Part shown: one piece after another, positions 4,317 through 43,016 of the stretch
How the letters are laid out: every line of letters starts with the position of its first letter
How positions within the stretch are numbered: the first letter of the stretch is position 1
Assembly (NCBI RefSeq): GCF_003058225.1
Contig: NZ_QBUG01000010.1
Coordinates: 124,001 to 188,000, forward strand
Origin: Promicromonospora sp. AC04
Lineage (GTDB): Bacteria; Actinomycetota; Actinomycetes; Actinomycetales; Cellulomonadaceae
Length of the DNA: 64,000 nt
Direction: 5' to 3'
The notes under the pieces: model-generated
Database searches by the model: none
What the model was told of the DNA's origin: nothing
The model's input: the letters and a program-made list of their open reading frames with translations, nothing else
Program-made: the position numbers and the translations under genes

Positions 4317-4318
4317 CC

Positions 4319-6836: not shown

Positions 6837-7042
6837 CTACGGACATGGCAACGCCAATCACTGATCGCTTGTGGACGGTGCAGGACGTCTCGGCGTTCCT
6901 CGGTGTGCCCGTCGGCACGCTTTACGCCTGGAGGTCTACCGGTAAGGGTCCGGATGCTCGCCGCATCGGTAAGTACGTGCGCTATCGACCTGATGACGTG
7001 CGTGCGTGGGTTGCGGCCCTTCCCGTCGGGGTGGCGTCATGA
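6833..7042 (+). CDS. xis: Excisionase, MerR-like winged HTH
   Basis: 69 residues from the ATG at 6833, preceded by GGGAGGAAAGG and overlapping the Rep stop. It has the HTH_17/excisionase form: LWTVQDVSAFLGVPVGTLYAWR as helix-turn-helix, then the wing GKYVRYRPDDVRAWV. Known: such Xis proteins bend DNA at the att site and steer Int toward excision. The stop overlaps the int start (ATGA), so both are made together. Confidence 0.85.
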   Translation: MTTDMATPITDRLWTVQDVSAFLGVPVGTLYAWRSTGKGPDARRIGKYVRYRPDDVRAWVAALPVGVAS

Positions 7043-8223: not shown

Positions 8224-8237
8224 TCTGGGGAGACGTC

Positions 8238-8259
8238 GTCACCCGTGTTGTCACCCGTG
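8238..8259 (+). repeat. Tandem GTCACCCGTG pair between int and att
   Basis: GTCACCCGTG occurs at 8238-8247 and again at 8250-8259, one helical turn (12 bp) apart, 67 bp from the tRNA end. The position fits arm-type Int or Xis binding sites in the element's att region; this is inference from location. Confidence 0.5.
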
Positions 8260-8325
8260 CGGTGGTTCGGGAGCGGGCTGACCGCCTCGTTGGGTGCGAA
8301 TTGCCTGGTGGTGGCGCTGTCAGGG

Positions 8326-8370
8326 TGGGCCCCCCGGGGATCGAACCCGGAACCCGCGGATTAAAAGTCC
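8326..8370 (-). other. Predicted attR core inside the tRNA-Lys 3' half
   Basis: The element lies on the tRNA's 3' side, so the crossover should fall in the T-arm/anticodon half of the gene. The exact core cannot be set because the matching left copy is outside the window. The end coordinate is an estimate at the anticodon arm. Confidence 0.45.
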
Positions 8371-8398
8371 GCTGCTCTGCCAGTTGAGCTAGAGGCCC
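8326..8398 (-). tRNA. tRNA-Lys (anticodon TTT)
   Basis: A 73-nt cloverleaf on the minus strand. The acceptor stem GGGCCTC pairs with GGGGCCC (one G-U), followed by discriminator A. The D arm has GCTC/GAGC, the anticodon stem is GCGGA/TCCGC around CTTTTAA (anticodon TTT), and the T arm is CCGGG-TTCGATC-CCCGG. The CCA end is not encoded. It remains intact after the element's insertion, as expected when the element restores the 3' end. Confidence 0.96.
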
Positions 8399-23902: not shown

Positions 23903-23929
23903 CGGAATGTTCCTCTGATCAACATTCCG
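23903..23929 (+). promoter_or_regulatory. Operator of the first catabolic operon: CGGAATGTT-N9-AACATTCCG
   Basis: Perfect 9-bp inverted arms 30 bp upstream of the deaminase start. The same arms and the same 9-bp spacer recur at 32543-32567 before the second operon. Likely site of the XRE-cupin regulator encoded between them (inference). Confidence 0.75.
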
Positions 23930-23958
23930 CTCGGTCGACACCTCTGGGAGGAGATGCC

Positions 23959-25308
23959 GTGCAGCATGACGCGACGAGATCCGCGCCGCTCCCCGTCGGT
24001 ACGCCCGACGGCGCCGCGCCGCTCGCGGGCGCCCGTGTCGCCGCCCTGCTCGGGGTGCGGACCGTCGACGGAGCGGTCGTCGACGTCGAGATCTCCGGGG
24101 GCCAGGTCGCCGCGGTGGCGGCGAGCGGATCGTTGCCGCCCGTCCACGACCCGGCCGTGCGGCTGGACGCGAGCGGCTGGCTCGCGCTCCCGGCCGCGTG
24201 CGAGCCGCACGCCCACCTCGACAAGGCGCTCACCGCGGCGCGCGTCCCGGTCGAGACCGGGGAGGACCTCGTGGGCGCCGTCGCCCGGTGGCGGGAGCTC
24301 GCGCCCCATATCGACGGCGCCGACGTCCTCCGCCGCGCGCGGACCGCCGTCGAGCGCTACGTCGCCCGAGGCATCACGACCATCCGCACTCATGTCGACG
24401 CGCCCGCCGAGGGCGACCCGCTGCGTCTGCTCGACGCCCTGCTCACGCTTCGCGAGGAGCTCGCGGGGTCCGTGACGCTCCAGGTCTGCCTGCTCGGCGG
24501 CTGGCACACGCCGACCGAGGTCTTCGTCGAGGCGGCTGCTCGCGGCGTCGACGTGCTGGGCGGGTGCCCGCACCTCGCCCCGGACCCCCGCGCGGAGATC
24601 ACGCGAGTGCTCGACGTCGCGGAGCGCACCGGGCTTCCCGTGGACCTGCACGCCGACGAGCAGACTGCCCTGCCGGACAGCGGCAAGCTCGACGTCGAAG
24701 AGCTCGCCGAGCAGGTCATCGCGCGCGGCCTTACCCAGCGCGTGACCGCGAGCCACGCCGTCCGGCTCGGGTCGCTGCCGCCGGAGCGCCTGGCCCCCGT
24801 CGTCGATCTCATCGCGCGTGCCGGACTCGGCGTCGTGACGCTCCCGATCACCAACCTCTATCTCCAGGGCCGCGACGCCACGCATCTCGCGCCCCGCGGC
24901 GTGACCGCCGTCCGCGCGCTCCTGGACGCGGGGGTCCCCCTGGCGGCCGGGGCGGACAACATGCGCGACCCCTTCAACCCCGCGGGTAGCGGCGACCCCT
25001 TCGAGACGACGTCGCTGCTCATGACCGCGGCGCACCTCTCGGCCCGGGAGTCGCTCGACGCCGTGACCGCCGGGGCGCGGACGGTGCTCGGCCTGCCGCC
25101 GGCAGGTCTGTCCGTCGGCGACCGCGCCGACCTGGTCCTCGTACCCGACGTGCCGCTCGGCGACGTGCTGGCCGGCGCGGACCACTCGCGCGTGGTCCTC
25201 GCGGGCGGGCGCGTCGTGGCGGACACGCGCGTGCGCAGCAGCCTTTCCCTCTGGCCGGTCGCTCCGCCGGCCGCCGAGGTCTCCGAACCCGAACAGCTCG
25301 TGAGGTGA
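23959..25308 (+). CDS. Cytosine-deaminase-like amidohydrolase
   Basis: 449 residues from a GTG with GGAGGAG ribosome binding site. The amidohydrolase metal ligands are visible: EPHAHLDKA (HxH), [25 protein letters not shown] and [11 protein letters not shown] (final Asp). The order and the '[15 protein letters not shown]' block match CodA/AtzC-type deaminases, which hydrolyse exocyclic C-N bonds of pyrimidines and triazines. First gene of an operon with an ABC importer, so it probably acts on the imported compound. Cytosine itself is only one possibility. Confidence 0.8.
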
Positions 25309-25314
25309 TGACCA

Positions 25315-26085
25315 GTGAGCACAGTGACCACGACGACGCCACGACCGAAGTCCATGACGCGCACGCTCGTGCTCGACGACGTGAGCAAGACGTTCCCCAC
25401 CGGCACCGTCGCGCTCGACGGCGTGAGCCTCTCGGTCGCTGCCGGCGAGTTCGTCACTGTCGTCGGCCCGTCCGGGTGCGGTAAGTCGACCCTGCTGCGC
25501 CTCGCCTCGGGGCTCGACGAGGTGACCGGCGGGGAGATCGAGGTCAACGCCACCTCGACCTCCTACGTGTTCCAGGAGGCGACGCTGCTGGAGTGGCGCA
25601 GCGCGTTGCGGAACGTCGAGCTCGCCGGCGAGCTGCGCGGTGCCGCGAAGCCGGACCGGCGACGGCGGGCACAGGAGGCGCTCGACCTCGTGGGGCTGTC
25701 CGGCTTCGAGAAGCAGCACCCCCGGCAGCTCTCCGGCGGCATGCGGATGCGGGTGTCGATCGCCCGCGCGCTCGTCGCTGAGCCGGACCTCGCGCTGTTC
25801 GACGAGCCGTTCGGGGCGCTCGACGAGATCACCCGGCTGCGGATGCAGACGGAGCTGCAGAGCCTCTTCGAGCTCAAGAACTTCGCCGGGCTGTTCATCA
25901 CGCACTCCGTCTCTGAGGCGGTCTACCTGTCGACGCGGGTCGTCGTCATGAGTGGCCGTCCCGGCCGGGTGGTGGCCGACATCCCCGTCCCCTGGTCCTA
26001 CCCGCGCCCGCCCGAGCTCCGCTACGAACCCGAGTTCGCGGCGCTCACCGGCGAGGTCTCCGCGGCGCTCGGGGAGCACTCGTGA
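25315..26085 (+). CDS. ABC importer ATPase (NitT/TauT type)
   Basis: 256 residues from the GTG at 25315. Walker [11 protein letters not shown]-loop in [11 protein letters not shown], signature [15 protein letters not shown], Walker [15 protein letters not shown]-loop ITHSVSEA. The form fits the nitrate/taurine/aliphatic sulfonate/thiamine-precursor group. The stop overlaps the permease start by 4 bp. Confidence 0.9.
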
Positions 26086-26966
26086 GCGCCGCCGCGGTGA
26101 ACGCGCCCGCCGCAGACACCCAGAGCGGCACCCGTGACGTCGTCGCGCAGGCCCCCGCCCGGGCCGGCGTCCGACGTGGCCTGGTCTCGGCCGGGGCCAA
26201 GGTGTGGCCGCTCCTCGCCGCCGTCGGGGGCATCGTCGCCGTCTGGTACGCCGTCACCTACCTCGTGCTCAGCCCCGAGCGCCGGTTCCTGCTCCCGCCG
26301 CTGCACCAGGTCATCGGCACCACGGTGGGCAACCCGAACATCATGGGCCCCATGCTCGACGCCCTGGGGCAGACCGTCGGCGTAGCCCTGTCCGGCCTCG
26401 CGATCGCCGTGGTGCTCGGCATCGGGTACGCCGTGGTCATGGTGCAGGCGGGCTGGGTCGAGAAGATCCTCTACCCGTACGCGGTGATCCTGCAGACCAT
26501 CCCGATCCTCGCGCTCACACCGCTCATCGGGATCTGGATGGGCTACGGGTTCAGCGCCCGCATCGTGGTGTGCGTGATCATCGCCCTGTTCCCGATGATC
26601 GCGAACACGCTGTTCGGGCTCCAGTCGGCCGGGCCCGCCGCGCACGACCTGTTCACGCTGAACCGGGCCACGCGCGCGCAACGGCTCTTCAAGCTCCAGT
26701 TCCCGGCCGCTCTCCCGTCGATCTTCACGGGTCTGCGCAACGCCGCGGGCCTGAGCGTGATCGGCGCGATCGTCGGCGACTTCTTCTTCCAGCAGGGCCT
26801 GCCGGGGATCGGCGGCCTGCTGCGCGTCTACACGCTGCGACTCAACATGGACGCCCTGTTCACGGCCATCATCCTCACCGCCCTGTTCGGGGTCGCGGTG
26901 TTCTCGGTCTTCGCGGCGCTGGACCGTGCGGTCATCGGCCGCTGGTACGGCCGCGGCGCGCCCTGA
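26082..26966 (+). CDS. ABC importer permease (NitT/TauT type)
   Basis: 294 residues, six hydrophobic segments after a cytoplasmic N-terminus. The EAA-like coupling loop is [31 protein letters not shown], close to SsuC/TauC. GTG start overlapping the ATPase stop. Confidence 0.9.
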
Positions 26967-27048
26967 CCGCGGCGCCGTCCGACCAAAGCACGCCTTCCTC
27001 AGCCCCAGACCCCCCAGCCACACCCCCCGCCCCACCCTTGGAGTCCTC

Positions 27049-28233
27049 ATGTTCCGATCCCGGCCCCGACGCCTCGCCCTCGCCACGTTGACCGTCGTCC
27101 CGCTCCTCGCCCTGACCGCGTGCGGCGGGTCCGCCGACGCCCAGGGCGGAGCGGCCCAGCTCGACGTCCCGGCGGCGGAGGCGGACGGCCCGCTCGACCT
27201 CTCCGGCGTCTGCCCAGCGACCGTCGTCATGCAGCAGGACTGGCAGCCCGAGGCGGAGCACGGGGCGATGTACTCGCTCGTCGGGGCGGACCACACGGTG
27301 GACATCGAGGCCAAGTCGGTCACCGGCTCGCTGGTGGCCCAGGGTGTCGACACCGGGGTGGACATCGAGGTGCGCCCGGGCGGGCCGAACGTCAACTTCC
27401 AGCCCGTGCCGTCGCTCATGTACCTGGACGACTCGATCCTCCTCGGAGCGGTGACGACCGACGGGCAGATCGCCGGGCTGGCCGACAACCCCGTGGTCAC
27501 CGTGGCGTCCCAGCTCACCAACAGCCCGCAGATGGTCATGTGGGACCCGGAGAGCCACGAGGGCGCGACCACCATCAAGGAGGCCGCGGCCGACGGCGAC
27601 CCGCTGGTGGCCTCGGGCGACGTGTTCCCGCAGCTGCTCGCCGCCCAGGGCATCATCGACAAGTCCCAGATCGACCTCAGCTTCGAGGGGACGCCGCAGC
27701 GGTTCGTCTCCGACCCGAGCATCCTGCAGCAGGGGTTCGCGACTGCCGAGCCGTACAGCTACGAGAACGAGATCCCGCAGTGGAACAAGCCGGTCGACTA
27801 CCAGCTGATCTCCGAGGTCGGCTACTCGGTGTACCCGGAGGCGCTCGCGGTCCGCGCGGACAAGCTCGAGGAGAACGCCGACTGCCTCGCCAAGCTCGTG
27901 CCGATCATGCAGCAGTCGCAGATCGACTACCTCGAGGACCCGCAGGCCACGAACGAGCTGATCGTCGACCTCGTGGACCAGTACCAGACCGGATGGACCT
28001 ACTCGCTCGGCGTGGCCGACTACTCCGTCAAGGCCCAGAAGGACCTCGGCATCGTCACTGACGACCCGGCCTCCGGGGTGTTCGGCCAGATCGACCCCGA
28101 CCGCATGGCGGAGATCGTCGACACCTTCGGCACGCTCCTCGTCAACGCCGGCCAGATCGACTCCGCGGACATCGACCCCGAGTCGCTGTACACGAACGAG
28201 TTCATCGACGACTCGATCTCGATGGGAAGCTGA
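27049..28233 (+). CDS. Substrate-binding lipoprotein of the ABC importer
   Basis: 394 residues from the ATG at 27049 (TTGGAG ribosome binding site). Lipobox LLALTAC at about residues 19-25, so it is lipid-anchored outside the membrane. The mature part is a periplasmic-binding fold resembling NMT1/THI5-like proteins, with an unusually long acidic sequence (many D/E, few K). Trp/Tyr-rich patches (MQQDWQPEAEHGAMYSLVG, YQTGWTYSLGVADYS) could stack on an aromatic or heterocyclic ligand (inference). The overlap with the oxidase start couples uptake to catabolism. Confidence 0.82.
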   Translation: MFRSRPRRLALATLTVVPLLALTACGGSADAQGGAAQLDVPAAEADGPLDLSGVCPATVVMQQDWQPEAEHGAMYSLVGADHTVDIEAKSVTGSLVAQGVDTGVDIEVRPGGPNVNFQPVPSLMYLDDSILLGAVTTDGQIAGLADNPVVTVASQLTNSPQMVMWDPESHEGATTIKEAAADGDPLVASGDVFPQLLAAQGIIDKSQIDLSFEGTPQRFVSDPSILQQGFATAEPYSYENEIPQWNKPVDYQLISEVGYSVYPEALAVRADKLEENADCLAKLVPIMQQSQIDYLEDPQATNELIVDLVDQYQTGWTYSLGVADYSVKAQKDLGIVTDDPASGVFGQIDPDRMAEIVDTFGTLLVNAGQIDSADIDPESLYTNEFIDDSISMGS

Positions 28234-29585
28234 TGACCACTCCGACCACCGCCGAGCGGGCCGCGGCAGCCGCGACCGAGATCGCCGACCGGTTCGGGCC
28301 CGAGCTCGTCTCCACCGAGGCGGAGCTGCTGCTCAAGGCCTCCTCCGACTGGTCGCGCATGTCGCCGATCCTTCAGGAGAAGGTGCCGGCCGGCCGGTAC
28401 CTGCCGGACGCCGTCGTGCGCCCCCGCTCGGCGGACGAGGTGGCCGAGGTCCTGCGGATCGCCTACGAGCACGACGTCCCGGTGACGCCCCGCGGCTCGG
28501 GCACGGGAAACTACGGGCAGGCCACGCCGTTCGACGGCGGGCTCGTGCTCGACCTGCGCGGCCTCGACACGATCCGGGTCAATGACTCGGGCACGGTGAC
28601 AGCGGGCGCGGGGGCGAAGATCACCGCCATCGACGTCGCAGCGCGGGCCGCGGGCCGGGACATCTGGATCTACCCGTCCACCAAGGGATCGACCATCGGC
28701 GGGTTCGTCGGCGGTGGTTCGGCCGGTACGGGGACGATCGAGCACGGGTCCACCTCCGACGGCTACGTGCTCTCGCTCACCGTGGCGCCCATGGACGGTA
28801 GCGGCACCACGTTCACCGTGTCCGGCCCGGACGTCATGCCCTACGTGCACGTGTACGGGGTGACCGGGGTGATCGTCGAGCTGGAGATCGCCACCGACCC
28901 CGCGCGCGACTGGGTGGCGGTCTACGCCGAGTTCCAGGACTGGGCGTCGATGACGAGCGTGCACCGCTCGCTGCTCGACCTGCCGGTGCTGCCACGGCTC
29001 GCCTCCGCGGACCCGCCCGCGCTAGTGCCGAGCCTGCCAGCCGCCGTGCCGCTCGATCCCGCGCAGCACAGCCTGCGCGTGATCGCGGAGGCCTCGACCG
29101 TGGCGGAGATCGAGGCGCGGGTCGTGGCCGCTGGCGGCGTCGTCGTCGCGAGCCTCGCGGACTACGCGGAGACGGACAAGCTGTCGTCGATGTCGTACAA
29201 CCACCCGGTGTACTTCCTGCAGAAGGCGCACCCCGACCGCACGTGGTTCCACATGGAGACCGGCGGGCTCGCGCACTGGGAGCGCCCCGACGACGTCCGG
29301 GCGGTGTACGACGGCGACGTCCACCTGCACCTGGAGCTCATGGGCAGCGCACCGCTCGCGATGGTCGTCGCCGACTACGTCTCCGAGCAGGAGGCGCTCG
29401 CGGGGATCGAGCGCCTCGAGGCGCTCGGCCTCGGCGTGCACTCGCCGCACCAGTGGTACGTGGACCGGCACGTGGACCTCGCCCGCGAAACGGCCCGGAC
29501 CACGGACCCGAAGGGCCTGCTCAACCCGGGCAAGCTCGTGGACGCACCGCCGGTCGACACCCGCATCAACATCGGGGTGCGCTGA
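28233..29585 (+). CDS. FAD-binding (PCMH-type) oxidoreductase, GlcD-like
   Basis: 450 residues. The PCMH FAD domain has TPRGSGTGNYGQATPFDGGLV, then the pyrophosphate loop TIGGFVGGGSAGTGTIEHG. The C-terminal cap ends with TDPKGLLNPGKLV, the family finish. Such enzymes oxidise alpha-hydroxy acids, amines or phenols. In this operon it probably oxidises the ring or a hydroxy-acid intermediate (inference). ATG overlapping the lipoprotein stop. Confidence 0.8.
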   Translation: MTTPTTAERAAAAATEIADRFGPELVSTEAELLLKASSDWSRMSPILQEKVPAGRYLPDAVVRPRSADEVAEVLRIAYEHDVPVTPRGSGTGNYGQATPFDGGLVLDLRGLDTIRVNDSGTVTAGAGAKITAIDVAARAAGRDIWIYPSTKGSTIGGFVGGGSAGTGTIEHGSTSDGYVLSLTVAPMDGSGTTFTVSGPDVMPYVHVYGVTGVIVELEIATDPARDWVAVYAEFQDWASMTSVHRSLLDLPVLPRLASADPPALVPSLPAAVPLDPAQHSLRVIAEASTVAEIEARVVAAGGVVVASLADYAETDKLSSMSYNHPVYFLQKAHPDRTWFHMETGGLAHWERPDDVRAVYDGDVHLHLELMGSAPLAMVVADYVSEQEALAGIERLEALGLGVHSPHQWYVDRHVDLARETARTTDPKGLLNPGKLVDAPPVDTRINIGVR

Positions 29586-30409
29586 TGGGCGCGGCCCGGG
29601 TCCCGCGGTTCGCGGACCTGACGTGGCCGGAGATCGAGGCGCTGCCGGCGGACACGGTCGCGGTGCTGCCGCTCGGCGCGATCGAGCAGCACGGCCCGCA
29701 CCTGCCGGTGTCCACAGACCTCGTCACCGCCACGGAGGCGGCGGCAGCGGCGGTAGGGGCGGTGGCTGCCTCCGGCGCGGCCTCCGTCGTGCTGCTGGAA
29801 CCGCTCGCGTACACGAAGTCGGACGAGCACGCGGGATTCCCGGGCACCATCTGGCTGTCGTGGGACACGCTCATGCGGGTCCTGGTCGACGTCGGGCGGT
29901 CGCTGGCGGCGTCGGGCATCACGCGGCTGGCGTTCGTCAACGGCCATGGCGGCAACTCCGCGCTGGGCCAGGTCGCGAACCGCGAGCTGCGCCGCCGGTT
30001 CGGGCTGCGCACGTTCTTCGCCCACCTCGCGACGCCGCGCGACCAGGGCGGTGCCTCGGTGTCGGACGGCGAGCACGGGCTCGGCGTCCACGGCGGCCAC
30101 GGGGAGACGTCGCTCATGCTGCACCTGCGACCCGACCTGGTCCGCATGGACCTCGCGGAGCGCCGCGTGCCGGAGGACCTGCTCGCCTACGAGCAGATCG
30201 GATTCGGCCGCCCCACGTCGTTCGGCTGGCTGTCGAGCGACTTCGGTCCCGACGGTCATATCGGCGACCCGACGACGGCGTCAGCCGAGGCGGGCAAAGA
30301 GCTGTTCGAGCACGCCGTCGAGCAGCTGGCACGCACGCTCGTCGAGGCGTCCCGGTTCACGACGCCGGCCGACGGCGCGGGGGCGCTGGGCGCGCGGGAA
30401 CGGGCGTGA
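29585..30409 (+). CDS. Creatininase-family amide hydrolase
   Basis: 274 residues from the ATG that overlaps the oxidase stop. Metal-site motifs are intact: GAIEQHGPHLPVSTD (E, H, D ligands), FVNGHGGNSA and GVHGGHGETS (the family's HGGHGE-like site). The family opens cyclic amides such as creatinine or formamidopyrimidines, and also includes MftE. Context argues for hydrolysis of a lactam or cyclic ureide made by the neighbouring deaminase and oxidase. Confidence 0.85.
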   Translation: MGAARVPRFADLTWPEIEALPADTVAVLPLGAIEQHGPHLPVSTDLVTATEAAAAAVGAVAASGAASVVLLEPLAYTKSDEHAGFPGTIWLSWDTLMRVLVDVGRSLAASGITRLAFVNGHGGNSALGQVANRELRRRFGLRTFFAHLATPRDQGGASVSDGEHGLGVHGGHGETSLMLHLRPDLVRMDLAERRVPEDLLAYEQIGFGRPTSFGWLSSDFGPDGHIGDPTTASAEAGKELFEHAVEQLARTLVEASRFTTPADGAGALGARERA

Positions 30410-31848
30410 GTGCGCCTGGGCTCGGCGGGTCCGGCGCGAGTGCGTCCGGGGCCGACGGCGCGGCGCCGCGGCTGATCGTTCGCGGGGCGCTCGCGATCCG
30501 CACGGGGCCGGCTGCGGGGACCGGGCCCGGTCCGGGTGCGGGCGACGGCGAGGGCGAGCCGGGTGGCGACGTCGTCGTCGGCGGCGACGGCCGGGTGGTG
30601 AGTGTCGGGGCCGGGACGGGCGCGCGCGGCGCGCCCGCCGGCGTCGAGACGGTGGAGCTCGACGCGACGGGCTGCGTCGTCACGCCGGGGCTGGTGAACG
30701 CGCACCACCACCTGCTCCAGACGGCGTTCCGGACGCTGCCCGGAACGCGCGGCGTGCCGATGCGCGAGTGGCTCGCCCTGATGGCCGCCGCGTACCGGCG
30801 CGCCTCCGTGGACGCCGAGCTGGTGGGCGCCGCGGCGCTCGCCGGGCTCGCCGAGGCGCTGCTCAGCGGGGTCACCACTGTCGCGGACCATCATCTGACG
30901 TGGCCGGCCGCGCTCGATCCCGCCGAGACCGTGGACCTCGCCCGGGCAGCCGCCGGCGCGGCCGACGAGCTCGGGGCGCGGCTCGTCCTCGTCCGCGGCA
31001 CCGCGGGGGACGATCCCGAGACGGCGGCGCTGAGCGCCGACGCCATCGCTGCGGCGCTGGTCGGCGACGCGCCCGGCGGGGTGCGGGCGGACGGCGGCGT
31101 GCAGGTCGCCGTCGGCCCGGCCGGGGTGCACAGCGACAGCGAGGCGACCTTCCGGCTGCTGGGCGAGGTGGCGGCCCGCCGCGGGCTGCGGCGCCGCACG
31201 CAGGCCAACGAGCAGGTAGACGTCGCCGCGGCGCTCGAGCGCTACGGCAGGCGCCCGCTGGACCTGCTGGACGAGTGGGGCTGGCTCGCCCCCGACGTCA
31301 CGGTCGCGCACCTGTGCGACGTCACCTCCGACGAGATCGCCCGCGTGGCGGCGTCGGGGGCGCACGCGACCCATGCGCCCGGGTGCGACGTGCCGATGGG
31401 CTGGGGCGTCGCGCCCGTCGCGAACCTCCTCGCCGCGGGCGTCGTGGTGGGTCTCGGCACGAGCGGCGGAGGGTCGAACGACGCGGGCCACCTGCTCGCG
31501 GACGCCCGGCTCGGCATGCAGGTCTCCGCGCTGGTGGGCCGGCAGCTCACGGCGCGCGAGCTCCTGGACGCAGCGACCTCCGGGTCGGCGGACGGGCTCG
31601 GCAGGCCCGAGCTCGGCCGGCTCGAGGCCGGCTCGGCGGCGGACCTGTGCGTCTGGGACGTCGGCGGGGTCGCCGACGCCGGGGTGGCGGACCCGGTGGC
31701 CGGCCTGCTCTGGGCCGCGCCGGGCCGCCGGCCGCGCCATGTGGTCGTCGGGGGCCGGGTAGTCGTGCGGGACGGACGCCTGGTGGCGGCCGACGAGCGC
31801 GAGGTCGCCCGCGGGCTCAGTCGGCGCCTGGCGCGAATCGTTGCTTGA
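30406..31848 (+). CDS. AtzB/8-oxoguanine-deaminase-like amidohydrolase
   Basis: 480 residues from a GTG overlapping the creatininase stop. The N-terminus has a Gly-rich insertion (about residues 20-70) not typical of the family. The catalytic core has VNAHHHLLQTAFR (HxH-type), GPAGVHSDS, TVAHLCDVTSDEIARV and GLGTSGGGSNDAG. This pattern is typical of hydroxyatrazine hydrolase and 8-oxoguanine deaminase relatives. In the last block the usual Asp ligand is replaced by a GTSGGGSNDAG run, where aligned proteins have G-x-D-G. The 3' end overlaps the convergent regulator gene by 32 bp. Confidence 0.75.
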   Translation: MSAPGLGGSGASASGADGAAPRLIVRGALAIRTGPAAGTGPGPGAGDGEGEPGGDVVVGGDGRVVSVGAGTGARGAPAGVETVELDATGCVVTPGLVNAHHHLLQTAFRTLPGTRGVPMREWLALMAAAYRRASVDAELVGAAALAGLAEALLSGVTTVADHHLTWPAALDPAETVDLARAAAGAADELGARLVLVRGTAGDDPETAALSADAIAAALVGDAPGGVRADGGVQVAVGPAGVHSDSEATFRLLGEVAARRGLRRRTQANEQVDVAAALERYGRRPLDLLDEWGWLAPDVTVAHLCDVTSDEIARVAASGAHATHAPGCDVPMGWGVAPVANLLAAGVVVGLGTSGGGSNDAGHLLADARLGMQVSALVGRQLTARELLDAATSGSADGLGRPELGRLEAGSAADLCVWDVGGVADAGVADPVAGLLWAAPGRRPRHVVVGGRVVVRDGRLVAADEREVARGLSRRLARIVA

Positions 31849-32413
31849 CGACCAGCAGGCGGTAGGGCCTGCCGTCGGCGCTGCCCCAGCGGTGGCGGAT
31901 GCCGCCGCCGTAGTACGCGGAGTCGCCCGGCCCCAGCTCGTCGATGGCGCCGTCCAGGTCGAGCAGCACGTGCCCGTACACCACGTAGGCGTACTCGTCC
32001 TCGTCGTGCACCCAGTACGGGCCCGGGTCGCGCGTGGTGCCCGTGTACTCCAGCGGGTCGAACGGGCGGTCGCCGGCCGGCGCGAGCGCGCGGACCGTAC
32101 CGCCGTTCGCCGAGGCCCACGCTTCGCCGGTGCTGCGCACCACCGACGCGCTGCCTGCGTCGGACGTCGCGGTCCCGGAGAGCAGGATCTGCTGGGTCGT
32201 GCCGAGCGTCGTCGCCACCCGGAACAGGGAGGACATGCTCAGCCGCGCCCGGCCGCGCTCGACCTGGCTGAGGAACGAGTGCGAGAGCCCCGATGCCTGG
32301 GCGAGCTGGACGAGGGTCAGGCCCTGGTCGTGCCGGAGCGCGCGGATCTTCTGCCCCAGGCTGGTGACCGAGCGACCGAGGGGGTCCGTGTCCTCGTCGA
32401 TGAGCGCGTCCAT
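31817..32413 (-). CDS. XRE-cupin transcription regulator of the catabolic island
   Basis: 198 residues. An N-terminal XRE HTH (IRALRHDQGLTLVQLAQASGLSHSFLSQVERG) and a C-terminal cupin (about 120-195, YVVYGHVLLDLDGA...GDSAYYGGGIRHRW) that likely binds an effector. It lies between the two operons. Its own ribosome binding site region contains AACATC and GGAATG half-sites (32414-32424), like the operators before both operons, so autoregulation is likely (inference). Confidence 0.85.
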   Translation of the reverse strand: MDALIDEDTDPLGRSVTSLGQKIRALRHDQGLTLVQLAQASGLSHSFLSQVERGRARLSMSSLFRVATTLGTTQQILLSGTATSDAGSASVVRSTGEAWASANGGTVRALAPAGDRPFDPLEYTGTTRDPGPYWVHDEDEYAYVVYGHVLLDLDGAIDELGPGDSAYYGGGIRHRWGSADGRPYRLLVVKQRFAPGAD

Positions 32414-32542
32414 TCCTCGATGTTAGGGGACCGCGACGGTCGGACGGCGGCCGACGCCGGGGGACTTGCTGCCGTACCGGCGTCCGTAACAGAACCCGCG
32501 CGCCGGGGTGATCCCGGTGAAACATCGACCACCGAGGATGGA

Positions 32543-32567
32543 GGAATGTTGATGTCATCAACATCGC
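32543..32567 (+). promoter_or_regulatory. Operator of the second catabolic operon, overlapping the start codon
   Basis: GGAATGTT-N9-AACATCGC at 32543-32566, sharing the left arm, spacer length and AACAT of the site at 23903-23929. Nested in it is TGTTGATG-T-CATCAACA (32547-32563), a perfect palindrome. It spans the ATG at 32552, so a bound protein would also block translation or elongation. Another half-site, AACATCGA, lies at 32521-32528. Confidence 0.7.
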
Positions 32568-33082
32568 ATCCCGATTCCGTCGCCGACGGATTCCGGGACG
32601 CGATGGCCGGTCTGGCGAGCGGGGTGTGCGTGGTGACGACGGCGGCGGACGGCGTCCCAGCCGGGCTGACGACCACCGCGGTGATGAGCGTGAGCCTCGA
32701 CCCGCCGCTGGTGGCCGTCGGAGTCGGGCGGTCCAGCCGGACGCTGGCGCCGCTGCGCGAGGCGCGACGTTTCGCCGTGCACGTGCTGCCGCACGACCGC
32801 GAGGAGGTGGCGAAGGTCTTCGCCTCCAAGGCCCCGGACAAGTTCGCCGGCCTGGCGGTCCGTCCCGGCCTGGGCGGGGTTCCCGTCCTTGCCGACGATG
32901 CGCGCCACGTCCTCGAGTGCGAGACCTGGGCAGAGGTCGAGGCCGGAGACCACGTGCTGCTCCTCGGGCAGGTTGTCCGGGTGCACTCCGCGGGGGCCGC
33001 CCAGGGACGTGCGCTGGTGCACTTCGACCGGACGTTCCACCACGTCGGCGCGACCCGCGCGCCGGAGGTGCGGCACGGGTGA
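32552..33082 (+). CDS. Flavin reductase-like FMN-binding protein
   Basis: 176 residues from the ATG at 32552 (GGAGG 7 bp upstream; an ATG at 32546 is too close). The HpaC/flavin-reductase split barrel has FRDAMAGLASGVCVVTTAADGVPAGLTTTAVMSVSLDPPLV and the C-terminal 'LVHFDRTFHHVG'. It supplies reduced FMN or FAD to a partner monooxygenase in known pairs. The next gene is a flavoprotein, but it is oxidase-like, so the partner is not certain. Confidence 0.85.
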   Translation: MSSTSHPDSVADGFRDAMAGLASGVCVVTTAADGVPAGLTTTAVMSVSLDPPLVAVGVGRSSRTLAPLREARRFAVHVLPHDREEVAKVFASKAPDKFAGLAVRPGLGGVPVLADDARHVLECETWAEVEAGDHVLLLGQVVRVHSAGAAQGRALVHFDRTFHHVGATRAPEVRHG

Positions 33083-34473
33083 CCGACGGCGATGTCCTCG
33101 GACCCGTCGACCTGCCCGCGAGGGCGGTCCGCCCGGGCGACGACGCTTACGAGCCCGCCCGGCGGGCGCTCTCCGTCTCCGCTGTGGTGCCCGAGGACCG
33201 TCCCGCGCTCGTCGTCGCGGCGCACGACGTCGCGGACGTCGCGGCGGCCGTCCGACACGCCGGCCGGAGCGGCTTGCCCGTGACCGTCCGCTCCGGCGGG
33301 CACAGCACCGCGTTCGCCGCCCTGGGTGATGGCGCCCTCGCGCTCGACGTCGGCGCGCTCGACGACGTCGTCGTCGACCTCGGGTCGCGGACGGCGCGCG
33401 TCGGCCCGGGCGTGACGTCCTTGGCGCTCGCGGAGGCCCTTGACGGTACCGGGCTGGCGTTTCCGGTGGGGCACAAGGCAGGCGTCGGGTTCGGCGGTTT
33501 TCTGCTCGCCGGGGGCAACGGCTGGAACCAGGGCGCGTGGGGCAGCGCCTGCGAGTCGGTCCGGGATGCGGAGGTGGTGCTGGCCGATGGGAGGCAGGTC
33601 GTGCTCGACGCCGCCGCGGACCCCGAGGCGTTCGCGGTGCTGCGTGGCGGCGGTCCGGTGTTCCCGGGGGTGGTCACGTCCTTCGGGCTCCGCCTGTGGC
33701 CGGAGCCCGCCGTGCGGCGGTGTTCCGTGCACATGCGGGCCGCCGGCGCGGACGACCTCGCCGCCGTCGGGGCCTGGGCGGACAGCCTCGCCCGGGTGGT
33801 CGCGCCCGAGGTGGAGCTCACGCTGGTACTCGGAAAGGCCGACAGCGGACTCGGGATCGTCGCGTCGGTGACCGCGTTCGGGCGGGACGACCGGCACGCC
33901 GACGCGCTGCTCGCCCCCGTCACCCGGGAGCTGCCGCGCGTCACGGCCGCGGTCGTGTTCAGCTCGACGACCATGCCCGGCCTGCTCCGGGCCGAGCCCG
34001 CATGGCCGGAGTCGGGGTGCGTCGCGCAGCAGGCGTGGACCCGTGCGGGCTACGCAGAGGTGCTGCCTCGGCTGGCCCCATGGCTCCCCTCTGCGCCGTC
34101 GTCCGGGTCGAGCGTGCTGGTCAGCTCGGCGTCGTATCGCCGGTCGGCCCCGCCCGCCCCGGACACCCTGCACCGGCCCCTCGGGACGCTGACCGTCGCC
34201 GCCTACGCCGTCTGGCGGCCGGGTGACGCCGACGCCGCGAATCTCGCCTGGCCCACCGCGACGCTCGGCGCGCTCACCGACGTGACGACCGGACACTACG
34301 TCGGCGAGGCGGACCTGCGCCGCGCCCCTGGTCAGCTCGCCCGCTGCTGGGCGGACGGAGGAATCGACCGGGTCCGGGCGGTACGCGGTCGGCTCGATCC
34401 CACCGGCGTCTTCTCCGCGCCGCCCGGCCTGACCCCGGACCTGCTCCCGGCCGACCGCCCCGCTCGATCGTGA
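33079..34473 (+). CDS. FAD-linked (BBE-like) oxidoreductase
   Basis: 464 residues, GTG overlapping the reductase stop. FAD domain with VTVRSGGHSTAFAAL (His of the R-S-G-G-H motif that carries covalent FAD in BBE-type oxidases) and FPVGHKAGVGFGGFLLAGGNG. The substrate domain diverges from plant-type BBE, and the final BBE motif (usually Y-x-N-x) is not evident, ending DPTGVFSAPPG. It probably oxidises an intermediate of the pathway. Confidence 0.78.
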   Translation: MTDGDVLGPVDLPARAVRPGDDAYEPARRALSVSAVVPEDRPALVVAAHDVADVAAAVRHAGRSGLPVTVRSGGHSTAFAALGDGALALDVGALDDVVVDLGSRTARVGPGVTSLALAEALDGTGLAFPVGHKAGVGFGGFLLAGGNGWNQGAWGSACESVRDAEVVLADGRQVVLDAAADPEAFAVLRGGGPVFPGVVTSFGLRLWPEPAVRRCSVHMRAAGADDLAAVGAWADSLARVVAPEVELTLVLGKADSGLGIVASVTAFGRDDRHADALLAPVTRELPRVTAAVVFSSTTMPGLLRAEPAWPESGCVAQQAWTRAGYAEVLPRLAPWLPSAPSSGSSVLVSSASYRRSAPPAPDTLHRPLGTLTVAAYAVWRPGDADAANLAWPTATLGALTDVTTGHYVGEADLRRAPGQLARCWADGGIDRVRAVRGRLDPTGVFSAPPGLTPDLLPADRPARS

Positions 34474-34486
34474 CAGAAGGAGACCC

Positions 34487-35974
34487 GTGACCCACCCCGC
34501 TCCGCTTGCCCTCACCGTCGTCGACGCCCTGCTCCTGCCCGGTGCGGACACTGGACCCGAGTGGTACTTCGGCTGGCTCCAGGTCGGCACCGACGGGCGC
34601 ATAGTCGCCCTGGGTCCCGGGGACCCGCCGTCCGACACGCAGGGTGCGCCGGTGCTGGACGCCGGCGGCGCGATGGTGGCCCCCGGCTTCGTCTCCGCGC
34701 ACTCGCACCTGTTCACGTCCGGCCTGCGCGGCATCTCCCCCGACGCGACCCTGTACCCGTGGGTGCGCTCGATGATGGAGCTGTTCCGGCACACCGACGC
34801 GGAGGACATGTACTGGGCGACGCTGCACGGGTCGCTTGACTTCCTCGCCAACGGGGTGACCAGCGCGTACAACTTCATGCAGTCCGGTGTCACGTGGCTG
34901 TACGACCCGCGCACCGCACGTAACGTGCTCGGCCGGGTGCACCCCGACGACTACACGACCCGCCAGATGGACGGCACCGTCGATGCCGGCCTGCGTGCCG
35001 TGCACGCGATCCGGCTGGACGACGAGGCGGGTCCGGAGGACCAGGTGCTCGCGACCTTCGCGCGCAAGGTGGCCGCGGCGCGCGCCCCTGAGCGGGCGGG
35101 CCGCGACCAGCAGCTGGGGGTGTCCGTGATGGGCGCCGTCCAATGGGCGGCCACGTCGCGCACCGCGGAGCTCGAGGTGCGCGTGATGCGCGAGCACGGC
35201 ATCACCGACCAGGCCCACTTCGTGGAGACCGCCGAAGGGCTGGCCGTCCAGCGGGCCAAGTTCGCCTGGTACGAGGACGCCGGGGCGCTCGGTCCCGACC
35301 TGCTCCTCGGGCACTTCGTCCACCCCACCGACACGATGGTCGACCGCGTCTCGGCGGCGGGCAGCCCCGTGGTCTGGCAGCCGACGTCGAACGGGCGGCT
35401 CGGGTCCGGCGTCGCGGACGTCGTGCGCTACCGCGACGCCGGCATCGCGGTGGGCATCGGCCTGGACGACCAGTCGTGCACCGACATCTCCGACCCCTGG
35501 TCCAACATGCGGCTCGGCCTGTACTCGCAGCGTGCGCTGCACCACGACGCCGGGGTGCTCTCCCCGCGCGACGTGCTCCGCATGCACACGCTGGGGGCCG
35601 CCGAGGTGCTCGGCGTCGCCGACCGGGTGGGGAGCCTGGACGTCGGCAAGTACGCGGACTTCCTGCTCGTCGACCACCGGGCGCCGAGCACCGGCCCCGT
35701 ATGGGACGTCGTCGCGACCTACGTCCTCGCGTGCGGCCTGCGCAACCTGCGCGCGACGTACGTGGGCGGGCAGTGTGTCGCCCGCGACGGGCGCGGGACG
35801 ACGCCGCTCGCCGAGCGCGCCGACGCCGAGCTGGCCGAGCGGATCGAGCGAGCGGCGCACGCCGACGGGCGCAGGCTCGCGGTCACCGCGGAGCAGCTCA
35901 CCTCGGCGCGCGCCCGGAGGGACTCGCGCGGACCCGACAACGAGGCGGCCGGCGCGCACCAAGCCGCGAGATAG
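34487..35974 (+). CDS. AtzA/TrzN-like amidohydrolase
   Basis: 495 residues, GTG with AAGGAG ribosome binding site. Amidohydrolase motifs: VSAHSHLFTSGLRG (HxH), GHFVHPTDTMVDRV, and GLDDQSCTDISDP (Asp ligand, D-D-Q form). The 'RGIS...LYPWVRSMMELF' helix is typical of chlorohydrolase/deaminase relatives. It is the last gene of the flavin reductase operon and is followed by a strong terminator. The third amidohydrolase of the island. Confidence 0.82.
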   Translation: MTHPAPLALTVVDALLLPGADTGPEWYFGWLQVGTDGRIVALGPGDPPSDTQGAPVLDAGGAMVAPGFVSAHSHLFTSGLRGISPDATLYPWVRSMMELFRHTDAEDMYWATLHGSLDFLANGVTSAYNFMQSGVTWLYDPRTARNVLGRVHPDDYTTRQMDGTVDAGLRAVHAIRLDDEAGPEDQVLATFARKVAAARAPERAGRDQQLGVSVMGAVQWAATSRTAELEVRVMREHGITDQAHFVETAEGLAVQRAKFAWYEDAGALGPDLLLGHFVHPTDTMVDRVSAAGSPVVWQPTSNGRLGSGVADVVRYRDAGIAVGIGLDDQSCTDISDPWSNMRLGLYSQRALHHDAGVLSPRDVLRMHTLGAAEVLGVADRVGSLDVGKYADFLLVDHRAPSTGPVWDVVATYVLACGLRNLRATYVGGQCVARDGRGTTPLAERADAELAERIERAAHADGRRLAVTAEQLTSARARRDSRGPDNEAAGAHQAAR

Positions 35975-36042
35975 AACGCCAGCCAGACAGAACCATGGCG
36001 AAGTAGAACTGTGCACGATGTCCTGAGACATCACAGAACTGT

Positions 36043-36084
36043 GGCGAGATAGAACTGAAGCGCGATCTTCGGTTCTATCTCGCC
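36043..36084 (+). terminator. 18-bp hairpin terminator between convergent genes, with outer repeat arms
   Basis: GGCGAGATAGAACTGAAG, a 6-nt loop and its complement (one G-U). Outside it CGAAGTAGAAC (35999-36009) pairs with GTTCTACTTCG (36104-36114), and a further AGATAGAACGCC copy is at 35969-35980. The gap therefore holds a nested palindrome built from a repeated TAGAAC word. Confidence 0.75.
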
Positions 36085-36126
36085 GGGGTTCGCCTTCGCC
36101 CTGGTTCTACTTCGGCGAGAGGGGGG

Positions 36127-38157
36127 TCAGTCCTCCGAGGCGGCCGACGGCGCCGCCAGGCCCGCAGTGATCAGGTCCATCACGGAGGAGTCGGCCAGGG
36201 TCGTCGCGTCGCCCACCGCCCGGTCCTCGGCGACGTCGCGCAGCAGTCGGCGCATGATCTTGCCGGACCGGGTCTTGGGCAGCTCCTGCACCACGAGGAT
36301 CTTCTTCGGCTTCGCGATCGGGCCGATCTCCTTGCCCACGTGGTCGCGCAGCTCCTTCTGCACGTCGGCCGCGCCCTCCGGCGTCGCCGCCCGGCTCGCA
36401 TGGCTGCCGCGCAGGATCACGAACGCGACGACGGCCTGGCCGGTGGTCTCGTCGTTCGCGCCGACAACCGCGGCCTCCGCCACGATCGGGTTCGACACCA
36501 GCGCCGACTCGATCTCCGTGGTGGACAGGCGGTGGCCGGACACGTTCATCACGTCGTCCACGCGGCCCAGCAGCCAGATGTCGCCGTCCTCGTCCTTCTT
36601 GGCGCCGTCGCCGGCGAAGTAGAGGCCGTCGAACCGCGACCAGTACGTGTCCTTGTAGCGCTCCAGGTCGCCCCAGATGCCGCGGAGCATGGACGGCCAC
36701 GGCTCGGACAGCACGAGGTAGCCGCCACCACCGTCGGGCACGGGCTTGGCCTCGTCGTCGACGACGGTCGCCACGATGCCGGGCAGCGCCACCTGCGCCG
36801 AGCCGGGCTTGGTCCCGGTCACGCCCGGGAGCGGGCTGATCATGATGGCGCCGGTCTCCGTCTGCCACCACGTGTCGACGATCGGGGCCTTGTCGCCGCC
36901 GATGACGCGGCGGTACCACATCCACGCCTCGGGGTTGATGGGCTCGCCCACCGACCCGAGGACGCGCAGGGAGGAGAGGTCGAACCCGCCGGGGATGTCG
37001 TCGCCCCACTTCATGCAGGTGCGGATCGCCGTCGGCGCCGTGTAGAGGATCGAGACCTTGTACTTCTCGATGAGCTCCCACCAGCGGCCGCGGTGCGGGG
37101 AGTCGGGCGTGCCCTCGTACAGGACCTGGGTCGCGCCGTTCACGAGCGGCCCGTAGACCACGTAGGAGTGCCCGGTGACCCAGCCGACGTCGGCGGTGCA
37201 CCAGTAGACGTCGGTCTCCGGCTTCAGGTCGAACACGTTCTTGTGGGTGTATGCCGCCTGCGTGAGGTAGCCGCCGGTGGTGTGCAGGATGCCCTTCGGC
37301 TTCCCGGTGGTGCCGCTGGTGTACAGGATGAACAGCGGGTGCTCCGCCTCGACGGCGACCGGCTCGTGCTGGTCGGACGCCTCGGCAAGAGCCTCGTGCC
37401 ACCACACGTCGCGGCCCTCTACCCAGTCCACCTCCTGCTCGGTGCGCCGGACGACGAGCACCTTCCGCACGGTCGTCGGGTCGGCGCCCTCCTTGGGGGC
37501 GAGCGCCTCGTCGACGGCCGGCTTGAGGGCGGACGGGGCGCCGCGGCGGTAGCCGCCGTCGGCCGTGATGACCAGGGTGGCCTCGGCGTCGGCGATCCGG
37601 CTGCGCAGGGCGTCGGCGGAGAAACCGCCGAAGACGACGGAGTGCGGGGCGCCGATGCGGGCGCAGGCCAGCATCGCGACGACCGACTCGACGAGCATCG
37701 GCAGGTAGATGACCACGCGGTCGCCGGTCTGCACGCCCAGGGCGGTGAGCGCGTTGGCCGCGCGGGACACCTCCTGCTGCAGGTCGGCGTACGTGACCGT
37801 GCGGGTGTCGCCCGGCTCACCCTCGAAGTGGATGGCGACCCGGTCGCCGTTGCCGGCCTCGACGTGGCGGTCCACCGCGTTGTAGGCGGCGTTCAACGTG
37901 CCGTCGGCGAACCAGCGCGCGACGGGGGCTCCGCTCCAGTCCAGGGTCTCGGTGAACGGCGTCTTCCAGGTCACGAGGTTCTGAGCCTGCTCGGCCCAGA
38001 AGCCCAGGCGGTCGGCCGACGCCTTCTCGTACAGGTCGGCCTTCGCGTTCGCCTGGGCAGCGAACTCCGCGCTGGGCGGGAAGCTCCGGGTCTCGTGCAG
38101 AAGGTTCTCGAGGCTGGGGCTGGATGCCGAGCCCGACGTCGGGTTGGTGTCTGTCAC
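36127..38157 (-). CDS. acs: Acetyl-CoA synthetase
   Basis: 676 residues from the GTG at 38157 (GGAGG ribosome binding site; the longer open frame upstream has no family similarity). ATP-binding loop YTSGTTGKPKG, WWQTETGAIM, SGHRLSTTEIE and the acetylatable-lysine motif RTRSGKIMRR near the end are all present. Converts acetate, ATP and CoA to acetyl-CoA. Single gene, full length. Confidence 0.96.
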   Translation of the reverse strand: MTDTNPTSGSASSPSLENLLHETRSFPPSAEFAAQANAKADLYEKASADRLGFWAEQAQNLVTWKTPFTETLDWSGAPVARWFADGTLNAAYNAVDRHVEAGNGDRVAIHFEGEPGDTRTVTYADLQQEVSRAANALTALGVQTGDRVVIYLPMLVESVVAMLACARIGAPHSVVFGGFSADALRSRIADAEATLVITADGGYRRGAPSALKPAVDEALAPKEGADPTTVRKVLVVRRTEQEVDWVEGRDVWWHEALAEASDQHEPVAVEAEHPLFILYTSGTTGKPKGILHTTGGYLTQAAYTHKNVFDLKPETDVYWCTADVGWVTGHSYVVYGPLVNGATQVLYEGTPDSPHRGRWWELIEKYKVSILYTAPTAIRTCMKWGDDIPGGFDLSSLRVLGSVGEPINPEAWMWYRRVIGGDKAPIVDTWWQTETGAIMISPLPGVTGTKPGSAQVALPGIVATVVDDEAKPVPDGGGGYLVLSEPWPSMLRGIWGDLERYKDTYWSRFDGLYFAGDGAKKDEDGDIWLLGRVDDVMNVSGHRLSTTEIESALVSNPIVAEAAVVGANDETTGQAVVAFVILRGSHASRAATPEGAADVQKELRDHVGKEIGPIAKPKKILVVQELPKTRSGKIMRRLLRDVAEDRAVGDATTLADSSVMDLITAGLAAPSAASED

Positions 38158-38336
38158 GGTGTCCTCCGGTGCGCGTCTTCGCGTTCTTTCGGGCAGGGGC
38201 TTGGCGCTGCCTTGACGGTCTCTCTGCCCGGGAGTGTAGTCCCGGACGGTGACACCCCTCACAATCCGATGTCACCAGCTGAGACACCAGGTGCCTGCCA
38301 CGGAATGGCCCGGCGACCGGCCACGTTGGGGCAGGC

Positions 38337-41859: not shown

Positions 41860-43016
41860 GTGCGCCGGCGGTCGAGGTCTCCCTGCTCGACGACGTCCGC
41901 GCGCGGCTTGCGACCGGACGCACCGGCGCGGACGCCGCCGTCCGTGACGCGGTACGGGACTCCGGGCGGGTGCTCGGGTCCGACGCACTGCGGGACCTGG
42001 AGCGTGCGGCCCGGGCCGAGCTCACCGGTGCGGGCCCGCTGCAGCCGCTGCTCGACCTGCCCGACGTGACGGACGTGCTCGTCAACGGCCCCCGCGACGT
42101 GTGGGTCGACCGCGGTGCGGGGCTCGTGCGGGTCCCGACCGACCTGGGATCGGCCACCGAGGTGCGGGCGCTCGCCGTCCGGCTGGCTGCGCTCGGCGGC
42201 CAGCGACTCGACGACGCCTGCCCCACCGTGGACGCGCGCCTGCCCGACGGCACCCGGCTGCACGCCGTGCTGGAGCCGCTCGCCGAAACAGGCGCGGTGG
42301 TCTCCCTCCGGGTGCTGCGGTCTCGCGCGTTCACGCTCGAAGAGCTCGTCGCCGGCGGCGCCCTGCCCGGCCAGTGGGCGGGCCTGCTGCGGTCGCTCGT
42401 CCTGCGGCGGGCGAACGTGCTGGTCAGCGGCGGCACGGGCACTGGAAAGACAACGCTGCTCAACGCCGTGCTGTCCCTGGTGCCCGACGACGAGCGCGTG
42501 GTGACCGTCGAAGAAGCCCGCGAGCTGCGACCAGCGCACCCGCACGTGGTGCACCTCGCCGCCCGACGCGCCAACGTCGAGGGCGCCGGTGCCGTGGACC
42601 TCGCAGACCTCGTGCGGAACGCGCTGCGCATGCGACCCGACCGGATAGTGCTCGGCGAGTGCCGGGGCGCCGAGGTGCGTGAGGTCCTCATGGCGATGAA
42701 CACCGGGCACGACGGTGGCTTCGCGACCCTGCACGCCAACGCGGTCGCCGTCGTACCGGCTCGGCTGGAGGCGCTCGCGGGCCTGGCCGGGATGACCCGG
42801 GAGGCGGTGGCCGCGCAGGCCGCCGGCGGGCTGGACGTGGTGCTGCACCTCCGGCGGTCGCGCGGGTCCCGGTACCTGGCGGAGATCGGGCTGGTCGGAC
42901 GCACCCGGGGCGGGGAGCTGGAGGTGCGGACGGCCGCGTGCTGGGACGGGAGTGGTGGCTGCGAGGTCGAGCCTGGCGCGTGGGGCGAGCTCGTGGGGAG
43001 GTACGGGCCGTGGTGA
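41856..43016 (+). CDS. tadA: TadA/CpaF secretion ATPase
   Basis: 386 residues from the GTG that overlaps the Ssd stop. N-terminal domain with LLDLPDVTDVLVNGPRDVWVDR, Walker A VSGGTGTGKTTLL, the Asp-box variant VVTVEEARELRP, the His box and Walker B region RMRPDRIVLGECRGAEVREVL, and GFATLHANA. It powers Flp pilus assembly. All motifs intact. Confidence 0.93.
   Translation: MSAPAVEVSLLDDVRARLATGRTGADAAVRDAVRDSGRVLGSDALRDLERAARAELTGAGPLQPLLDLPDVTDVLVNGPRDVWVDRGAGLVRVPTDLGSATEVRALAVRLAALGGQRLDDACPTVDARLPDGTRLHAVLEPLAETGAVVSLRVLRSRAFTLEELVAGGALPGQWAGLLRSLVLRRANVLVSGGTGTGKTTLLNAVLSLVPDDERVVTVEEARELRPAHPHVVHLAARRANVEGAGAVDLADLVRNALRMRPDRIVLGECRGAEVREVLMAMNTGHDGGFATLHANAVAVVPARLEALAGLAGMTREAVAAQAAGGLDVVLHLRRSRGSRYLAEIGLVGRTRGGELEVRTAACWDGSGGCEVEPGAWGELVGRYGPW

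Follow-up and report, generated by a model that had tools for sequence, protein, structure and literature searches.

A candidate regulon for the uptake and breakdown of pterins in Promicromonospora sp. AC04

The DNA analyzed here, referred to below as the window, is a 64,000-nucleotide stretch of the genome of Promicromonospora sp. AC04 (contig NZ_QBUG01000010.1, positions 124,001 to 188,000 of the forward strand). Open reading frames and family matches placed eleven genes, designated A to J and R, within positions 23904-35974 of the window, and together these genes probably constitute a regulon for the uptake and breakdown of pterins, either as free pteridines or as the pterin part of folate. 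Genes A to G span positions 23959-31848 and genes H to J span positions 32546-35974, all on the plus strand, and the regulator gene R lies between the two runs on the minus strand. Because the gene junctions overlap or are at most 13 bp apart, with the sole exception of an 82-bp interval between C and D, the two runs look like two operons. The first encodes an amidohydrolase (A), an ATP-binding cassette (ABC) importer (B, C, and D), a flavin adenine dinucleotide (FAD)-dependent enzyme (E), a creatininase-family protein (F), and a second amidohydrolase (G), and the second encodes a flavin reductase (H), another FAD enzyme (I), and a third amidohydrolase (J). An earlier note on this DNA, made from the sequence alone, had listed an importer and three amidohydrolases here, with which the family matches of A, G, and J agree, and its proposal that a nitrogen-rich heterocycle is imported is well supported; gene H was absent from its list.

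The regulator R (31817-32413, minus strand) combines an XRE-type helix-turn-helix domain (HTH_31, 1.6e-11) with a cupin domain (Cupin_2, 7.7e-09). A palindromic operator common to both operon starts, GGAATGTTNNNNNNATCAACAT, occurs exactly at positions 23904 and 32543: operator O1 (23904-23928), which reads GGAATGTT-n9-AACATTCC, lies upstream of A, and operator O2 (32543-32564), with ATGTTGAT-GTC-ATCAACAT, lies over the start of H. Barring the same two sites on the other strand, no other site with at most 2 mismatches was present in the 6.85-Mb genome; at up to 3 mismatches there were 10 matches, comprising the two sites, both again on the opposite strand with 2 mismatches, and six further sites with 3, and the reversed control gave 2 matches. 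Since the pattern was derived from O1 and O2 themselves, conservation in relatives served as the independent test. The search for the palindrome AATGTTGATNNNATCAACATT covered 36 sequences (the window and 35 loci) and ran from 450 bp before the start of A to 150 bp into the gene; the exclusion of 5 sequences without A left 31. A site mismatched at no more than 4 of 18 positions was found near the A start in 17 of the 23 sequences with R versus 1 of the 8 without R (window included; Fisher P = 0.004, for loci that are not independent, with four congeners, the window among them, and five Curtobacterium loci), and for each of these 18 sites none of 100 Markov-shuffled regions was as good.

The sole site in a locus without R was that of L061. 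Six loci with R had no such site near A; three of them (L041, L042, and L043) carried an operator site elsewhere in the locus, including near R, L049 had a weaker site near A (6 mismatches, with 0 of 100 shuffles as good), and L046 and L054 had no near-A site better than shuffling readily yields (10 mismatches, with 99 of 100 shuffles as good, and 8 mismatches, with 6 of 100, respectively). In three congeners, the position of O2 was retained with 2, 0, and 2 mismatches. The presence of R thus goes with the presence of the operator across loci, and the two operons are very probably co-regulated, in keeping with the earlier note's picture of two operons, a regulator gene between them, and a common operator, which the genes, their spacing, and the exact pattern at both starts bore out. 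As O2 covers the start of H, its position suggests repression when the ligand is absent. A search for sigma-70-like promoters near O1 and O2 found none, a result that is uninformative for a high-GC actinobacterium. Operator-like sites with 2 to 3 mismatches were also seen in three Microbacterium loci (L061:15343, L062:10336, and L065:15436) at the probable start of the J homolog, comparable to the site at H here.

The earlier note had proposed a genome search for the gene set, and the set recurs in several phyla. Within the genus, E was present in 4 of 13 genomes, the window's own included, and the other three loci carried A to G, R, and H in unchanged order. Relatives of D were found in 33 of 296 genomes sampled from the class (window's own included). 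Twenty loci were fetched, three through E in the genus and seventeen through D, mostly as best D matches rather than at random, and A, E, and F co-occurred with the query gene in 17 of them (the exceptions were L051, L053, and L057). From an E-alignment scan of named genomes, the best 80 of at least 464 confirmed stretches were kept, with loci cut by contig ends counted; the counts beside E given here and below refer to these 80. An A-type gene lay beside E in 57, the ATPase gene in 64, the permease gene in 63, the binding protein gene in 59, and a creatininase-family gene in 59; the combination of A, B, C, and F was complete in 46. The set was found in Nocardioides, Microbacterium, Curtobacterium, rhizobia, Rhodobacteraceae, Variovorax, Hydrogenophaga, and Paenibacillus. 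In Nocardioides luteus (L058), A to G keep the order that they have in the window. In verrucomicrobial loci such as L073, L097, and L114, F, B, and C were present and an A-type match was absent. A gene resembling that for methylenetetrahydrofolate reductase (MTHFR) was found in 13 of the 102 loci searched, all 13 being among the 35 actinobacterial ones; the matches to methylenetetrahydrofolate reductase models were partial (PF12225 over 34 residues; PRK08645 at 52 to 63 bits against a cutoff of 453), and in one of the 13 loci the gene itself was matched in part.

Gene A (23959-25308, plus strand) encodes a CodA/AtzC-type amidohydrolase (Pfam Amidohydro_3) that is a probable pterin deaminase, judged by its motifs and its place in a tree. 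The HxH, H, H, and D motifs, which form the catalytic metal site of this amidohydrolase family, are all present. Among solved structures, the E. coli cytosine deaminases were the best matches (about 3e-39), with a distant likeness to AtzC as well, and all NCBIfam scores were below threshold. Excerpts of PMC9513972 describe a 399-residue pterin deaminase (EC 3.5.4.11) of Variovorax sp. F1, with a start primer encoding MKLEAVR, that is active on folic and pteroic acid and has a conserved endoribonuclease gene downstream of its own; they also name Arad3529 of Agrobacterium radiobacter K84, and they trace folate as far as deaminopteroic acid, leaving later breakdown open. Two of three Variovorax genomes searched encode a CodA-like protein of 399 to 400 amino acids with the start MKLEALR and an adjoining RidA-type gene (Ribonuc_L-PSP), and because start, length, and neighbor agree with the published F1 enzyme, this protein is its probable ortholog. 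The published start primer pattern itself had no match at a useful place in the fetched loci; it matched 17 places in the three Variovorax genomes, two of which are the ortholog, and those made into loci were otherwise unrelated by eye. In 16-kb stretches around the ortholog in two Variovorax genomes, homologs of C, D, and E lie approximately 3 to 6 kb away, together with a 2Fe-2S reductase gene.

In a tree of 76 sequences (a single FastTree run without guanine deaminases, with the inferred ortholog as the pterin-deaminase reference), the A protein of the window, most cluster-borne A proteins, and the ortholog formed one clade with a support of 0.909, and E. coli CodA and other CodA-like proteins fell outside it. 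Second A copies of L075, L077, and L096 also lay outside the clade, and the sequences of L165 and L182 lay just outside; in the L165 genome, a D relative is located about 5 kb from the A-type gene. The NCBIfam cytosine deaminase model NF005759 was the best, yet subthreshold, match for both the ortholog (L148:8113-9312) and the window A, and its name may mislead annotation of the A clade. A xylose-isomerase-like TIM-barrel gene (L148:7298-8113) lies directly 5′ of the Variovorax ortholog. The F1 deaminase is paired with carboxypeptidase G in the excerpts of PMC9513972, in which transporter, flavin-enzyme, and creatininase-family neighbors go unmentioned. A carboxypeptidase-G-like neighbor found no support among the loci here: with an L065 protein (an M20 peptidase by eye) as the query, no other of the 102 loci matched.

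Gene E (28233-29585, plus strand) encodes an FAD_binding_4 enzyme that is probably a flavin oxygenase. Its best solved relative by both sequence and fold was the Protein Data Bank (PDB) entry 6v42, entitled "Crystal structure of the flavin oxygenase with cofactor bound involved in folate catabolism." The sequence match (6e-47) was near full length, a profile of 44 E relatives matched the entry at 4.6e-188, and the predicted structure (pLDDT 90.7) matched the 6v42 fold best, with a TM score of 0.86 at 27% identity. The aligned part of 6v42 was 87, 77, 77, and 76% identical to the E proteins of L136, L116, L107, and L108, one Hoeflea and three Mesorhizobium loci, all of which also carry A, B, and C, so that a cluster like the present one is the probable source of the crystallized enzyme. 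The 6V42/6V43 flavin oxygenase shares fold and near-full-length homology with E, but its nearest sequences are those from Hoeflea and Mesorhizobium. No paper naming 6V42 or 6V43 was found in the literature searched.

The genes that accompany E are consistent with such an activity. Gene H (32546-33082, plus strand, with a start at 32546 or 32552) encodes a flavin reductase (Flavin_Reduct, 1.4e-40). Among the 54 loci from outside the actinobacteria and cyanobacteria, 36 have a Flavodoxin_2-type gene beside E, and 12 of 15 named actinobacterial loci have a gene for a 2Fe-2S reductase there; in the window and three congeners, H was present and the 2Fe-2S reductase was absent, and L043 had both. 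A reductase that recurs yet changes in kind fits E as an oxygenase needing reduced flavin. Gene I (33079-34473, plus strand; FAD_binding_4, 6e-25) encodes an FAD enzyme of the EncM/6-hydroxynicotine-oxidase kind, with EncM and 6-HDNO among its best solved relatives, and at an E value of 1e-30 it was found in 1 of the 13 genus genomes, the window's own, as an accessory gene. The earlier note had called E and I FAD oxidases; both are FAD enzymes, but in view of the 6v42 fold and the accompanying reductases, E looks like a reductase-served oxygenase and not a plain oxidase.

The importer consists of an ATPase of the Tau/Ssu/Nrt type (B, 25315-26085; ABC_tran, 1.8e-28, with taurine and sulfonate models as top matches below their cutoffs), a permease (C, 26082-26966; BPD_transp_1, 5.7e-20), and a solute-binding lipoprotein with a THI5/NMT1-like fold (D, 27049-28233), all on the plus strand. 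D had no Pfam match. A profile search related it to a thiamin-binding protein (4nmy, 1.3e-31), a formylaminopyrimidine-binding protein (3ix1, 1.9e-21), and proteins of the THI5 kind, and a Foldseek search with its predicted fold (pLDDT 88.3) returned 3ix1 as the best match, formylaminopyrimidine- and thiamin-binding proteins being nearest, followed by THI5. Because the nearest solved relatives bind formylaminopyrimidine or thiamin, the modeled fold supports a pyrimidine-like or pteridine-like ligand, and it keeps alive the alternative that the locus takes up and catabolizes thiamin or its pyrimidine (hydroxymethylpyrimidine or formylaminopyrimidine), given that these relatives of D bind thiamin or formyl-aminomethyl-methylpyrimidine. 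We consider that alternative quite unlikely, since A and E point to pterins and no thiaminase, TenA, or ThiD-like match was found among the window proteins scanned, which represent part of the window's genes.

Gene F (29585-30409, plus strand) matched the Pfam Creatininase family strongly (1.8e-72), which would suit catabolism of creatinine or a cyclic ureide; at 101.9 bits, however, F fell far short of the NCBIfam creatininase cutoff of 235, and it carries NGHGGN in place of the creatininase motif NGHYEN, which makes such a substrate very unlikely. The earlier note's creatininase therefore holds as a family label and not as an activity. Identity with MftE likewise missed its cutoff (146.9 of 172 bits). 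The product of F is probably an amidase or a formamidase. A precedent is provided by BrbF, a protein that carries a creatinine amidohydrolase annotation but, according to excerpts of PMC9478397, is a formamidase whose substrate is a pyrimidine on the way to riboflavin; this annotation can therefore cover pyrimidine-formamide enzymes, although BrbF is biosynthetic and is likened to F by annotation, not by sequence.

Gene G (30406-31848, plus strand) encodes an atypical TrzN-like amidohydrolase of the TRZ/ATZ type and is the oddest part of the set. TrzN was its best solved relative (1.2e-58) and aligned over 414 residues, including four histidines of TrzN that we take to be its zinc ligands and a glutamate that is presumably the acid. 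The HxH motif, one further His, and Glu269 are kept in G, but Gln266 replaces a His that is probably a metal ligand, so that the four-His metal site of TrzN is not found in G; the usual family Asp is Ser353, which aligns with a Thr of TrzN, a protein that likewise lacks the Asp there. The Gln and Ser were kept in all 14 relatives at 64 to 89% identity and in 7 of 7 sequences that included the window and L050, the latter lying outside the list of 14. Among the next 8 relatives, at about 33% identity or less, 5 had the ordinary Asp motif and 3 had no motif match. At an E value of 1e-100, G was found in 2 of 396 genomes of the phylum, the window's own and G138 (L045), the latter of which also has the cluster. 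Judged by these alignments, G belongs to a subfamily of its own in which the metal site is altered. Gene J (34487-35974, plus strand; Amidohydro_1, 1.8e-34) encodes an amidohydrolase of the TRZ/ATZ type whose metal-site motifs are ordinary; because G and J match each other at 27 to 29%, looser counts of either were set aside. The kinship of G with TrzN and the distant likeness of A to AtzC would accommodate degradation of an s-triazine or a related xenobiotic, but the separate subfamily and changed metal site of G, together with the spread of the set over phyla, unlike a recent xenobiotic pathway, leave this explanation with very little probability.

The earlier note had proposed a pyrimidine or purine derivative, a triazine, or a cyclic ureide as the substrate, and a pterin or a folate-derived pteridine now appears likelier. 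Seen directly are the gene content, the two operon-like runs, the conserved operator linked to R, the frequent presence near E of A, B, C, D, and F, and the families into which A, D, and E fall; the pterin or folate substrate is favored because of the clade of A, the match of E to 6v42, the fold relatives of D, the reductases, the MTHFR-like gene, and the precedent of BrbF. From relatives at 27 to 31% identity we infer the activities; the sequence of reactions, the compound bound by R, and the sign of its control (repression or activation) are likewise inferred. D, C, and B would import the pteridine, and A would remove its 2-amino group, converting a pterin to a lumazine. With reduced flavin supplied by H, the flavin oxygenase E would then oxygenate or open the deaminated ring, and F, G, and J would hydrolyze the resulting amide or amino-pyrimidine pieces. 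I may oxidize a side chain or a reduced pterin as a step extra to this strain, and R would use its cupin domain to sense a compound of the pathway and would act at O1 and O2.

Several findings weigh against a pterin substrate. The A protein of the window is 31% identical to the probable Variovorax ortholog, and Arad3529 and the F1 sequences themselves lie outside the comparison; E is 27% identical to 6v42, whose role in folate catabolism is known from the PDB title alone; and at these identities the substrate may have drifted. The same start pattern failed to reveal the ortholog in the third Variovorax genome, and B and F had no match in the 16 kb around the ortholog in the other two, a stretch that breaks off inside C or shortly after it. 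Both genomes with the ortholog contain a second cluster of the same kind (L124 and L132), and since its A protein is 38% identical to the ortholog, related clusters may differ in substrate. No MTHFR-like gene was found in any of the 13 genus genomes. Among the 11 cyanobacterial E loci, A-type genes were present in 1 and F in 2, and because the set is mostly missing around E there, the cyanobacterial E-like proteins probably have another role. The NGHGGN motif occurred in 25 of 26 actinobacterial F relatives and in 0 of 46 others, so that the F family may not be uniform and its step may differ between lineages.

The remaining contrary points bear on the first rival, in which an oxidized purine of the guanine, 8-oxoguanine, or xanthine type is imported, deaminated, oxygenated, and ring opened. 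The NCBIfam 8-oxoguanine deaminase model was the best for G and equal best for J; TrzN and 8-oxoguanine deaminase belong, like G and J, to the TRZ/ATZ hydrolases. L059 carries uricase and CMP-type deaminase genes near the cluster, and L066 carries an XdhC gene. A xanthine riboswitch (L096:4305-4355), found in 1 of 21 relative loci tested, lies ahead of the transporter genes in the homologous cluster, before a gene that by eye resembles a dioxygenase. The A protein, however, groups with pterin deaminase and not with cytosine deaminases, in the tree that lacks guanine deaminases, and the best solved relative of E is the folate entry. A search for RF03054 found no xanthine riboswitch in the window, where a tRNA alone passed the threshold, and riboswitch control was rejected for the locus. 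Overall, purine catabolism seems unlikely, though less so than the other rivals. Classical work reportedly describes a pterin route through xanthine-8-carboxylate, and the findings would likewise agree with a breakdown of pterins that leads into purine catabolism. Excerpts of PMC7373994 link regulons of the xanthine (NMT1) riboswitch to THI5-like proteins and amidohydrolases, a content like that of the present locus, which differs in that it has no riboswitch and appears to be controlled through R and the operator.

No description of the whole cluster was found in the literature searched, and in this respect the earlier note's statement that no named pathway has this exact set stands; it needs qualification in that a pterin deaminase has been published (PMC9513972, in the excerpts cited) and 6V42 has been deposited as a flavin oxygenase of folate catabolism. 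Parts of the pathway are thus known from other systems, whereas the regulon as found in actinobacteria and the enzyme G represent new variants. We tentatively suggest, as a bolder possibility that is less likely than the pterin substrate itself, that the set encodes a complete aerobic route of pterin-ring opening that has relatives among actinobacteria, proteobacteria, and Paenibacillus; in this route, E would open a lumazine-type ring through a flavin-oxygen adduct, F would remove a formyl or oxalyl amide, and G, with Gln in its metal site, would catalyze a reaction unlike that of any known member of the family. Most organisms make folate and pterins, yet little is known about the genes that serve to destroy them. 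If the pterin assignment is true, a candidate importer, oxygenase, hydrolases, and regulator have been named for pterin-ring breakdown, each testable gene by gene; much of the gene set travels together across phyla; and clade genes labeled cytosine deaminase or creatinine amidohydrolase need renaming.

Downstream of the second operon lies the convergent acetyl-CoA synthetase gene acs (36107-38262, minus strand). The interval between J and acs (35965-36116) contains five copies of the repeat GTTCTAYYTCGCC, in both orientations and with at most 1 mismatch. For the related pattern GTTCTAYNTCGCC, a genome-wide search gave 38 exact matches and the reversed control gave 1; several of the 38 form inverted pairs, resembling a REP family. 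Elsewhere in the window, positions 2673-8398 hold an integrated pSAM2-like element with an FtsK/SpoIIIE protein, a RepSA replication initiator, and a phage integrase, with a tRNA-Lys gene at its end, and positions 42938-44149 encode a type II secretion F-domain protein whose adjoining genes look Tad-type-secretion-like by eye.

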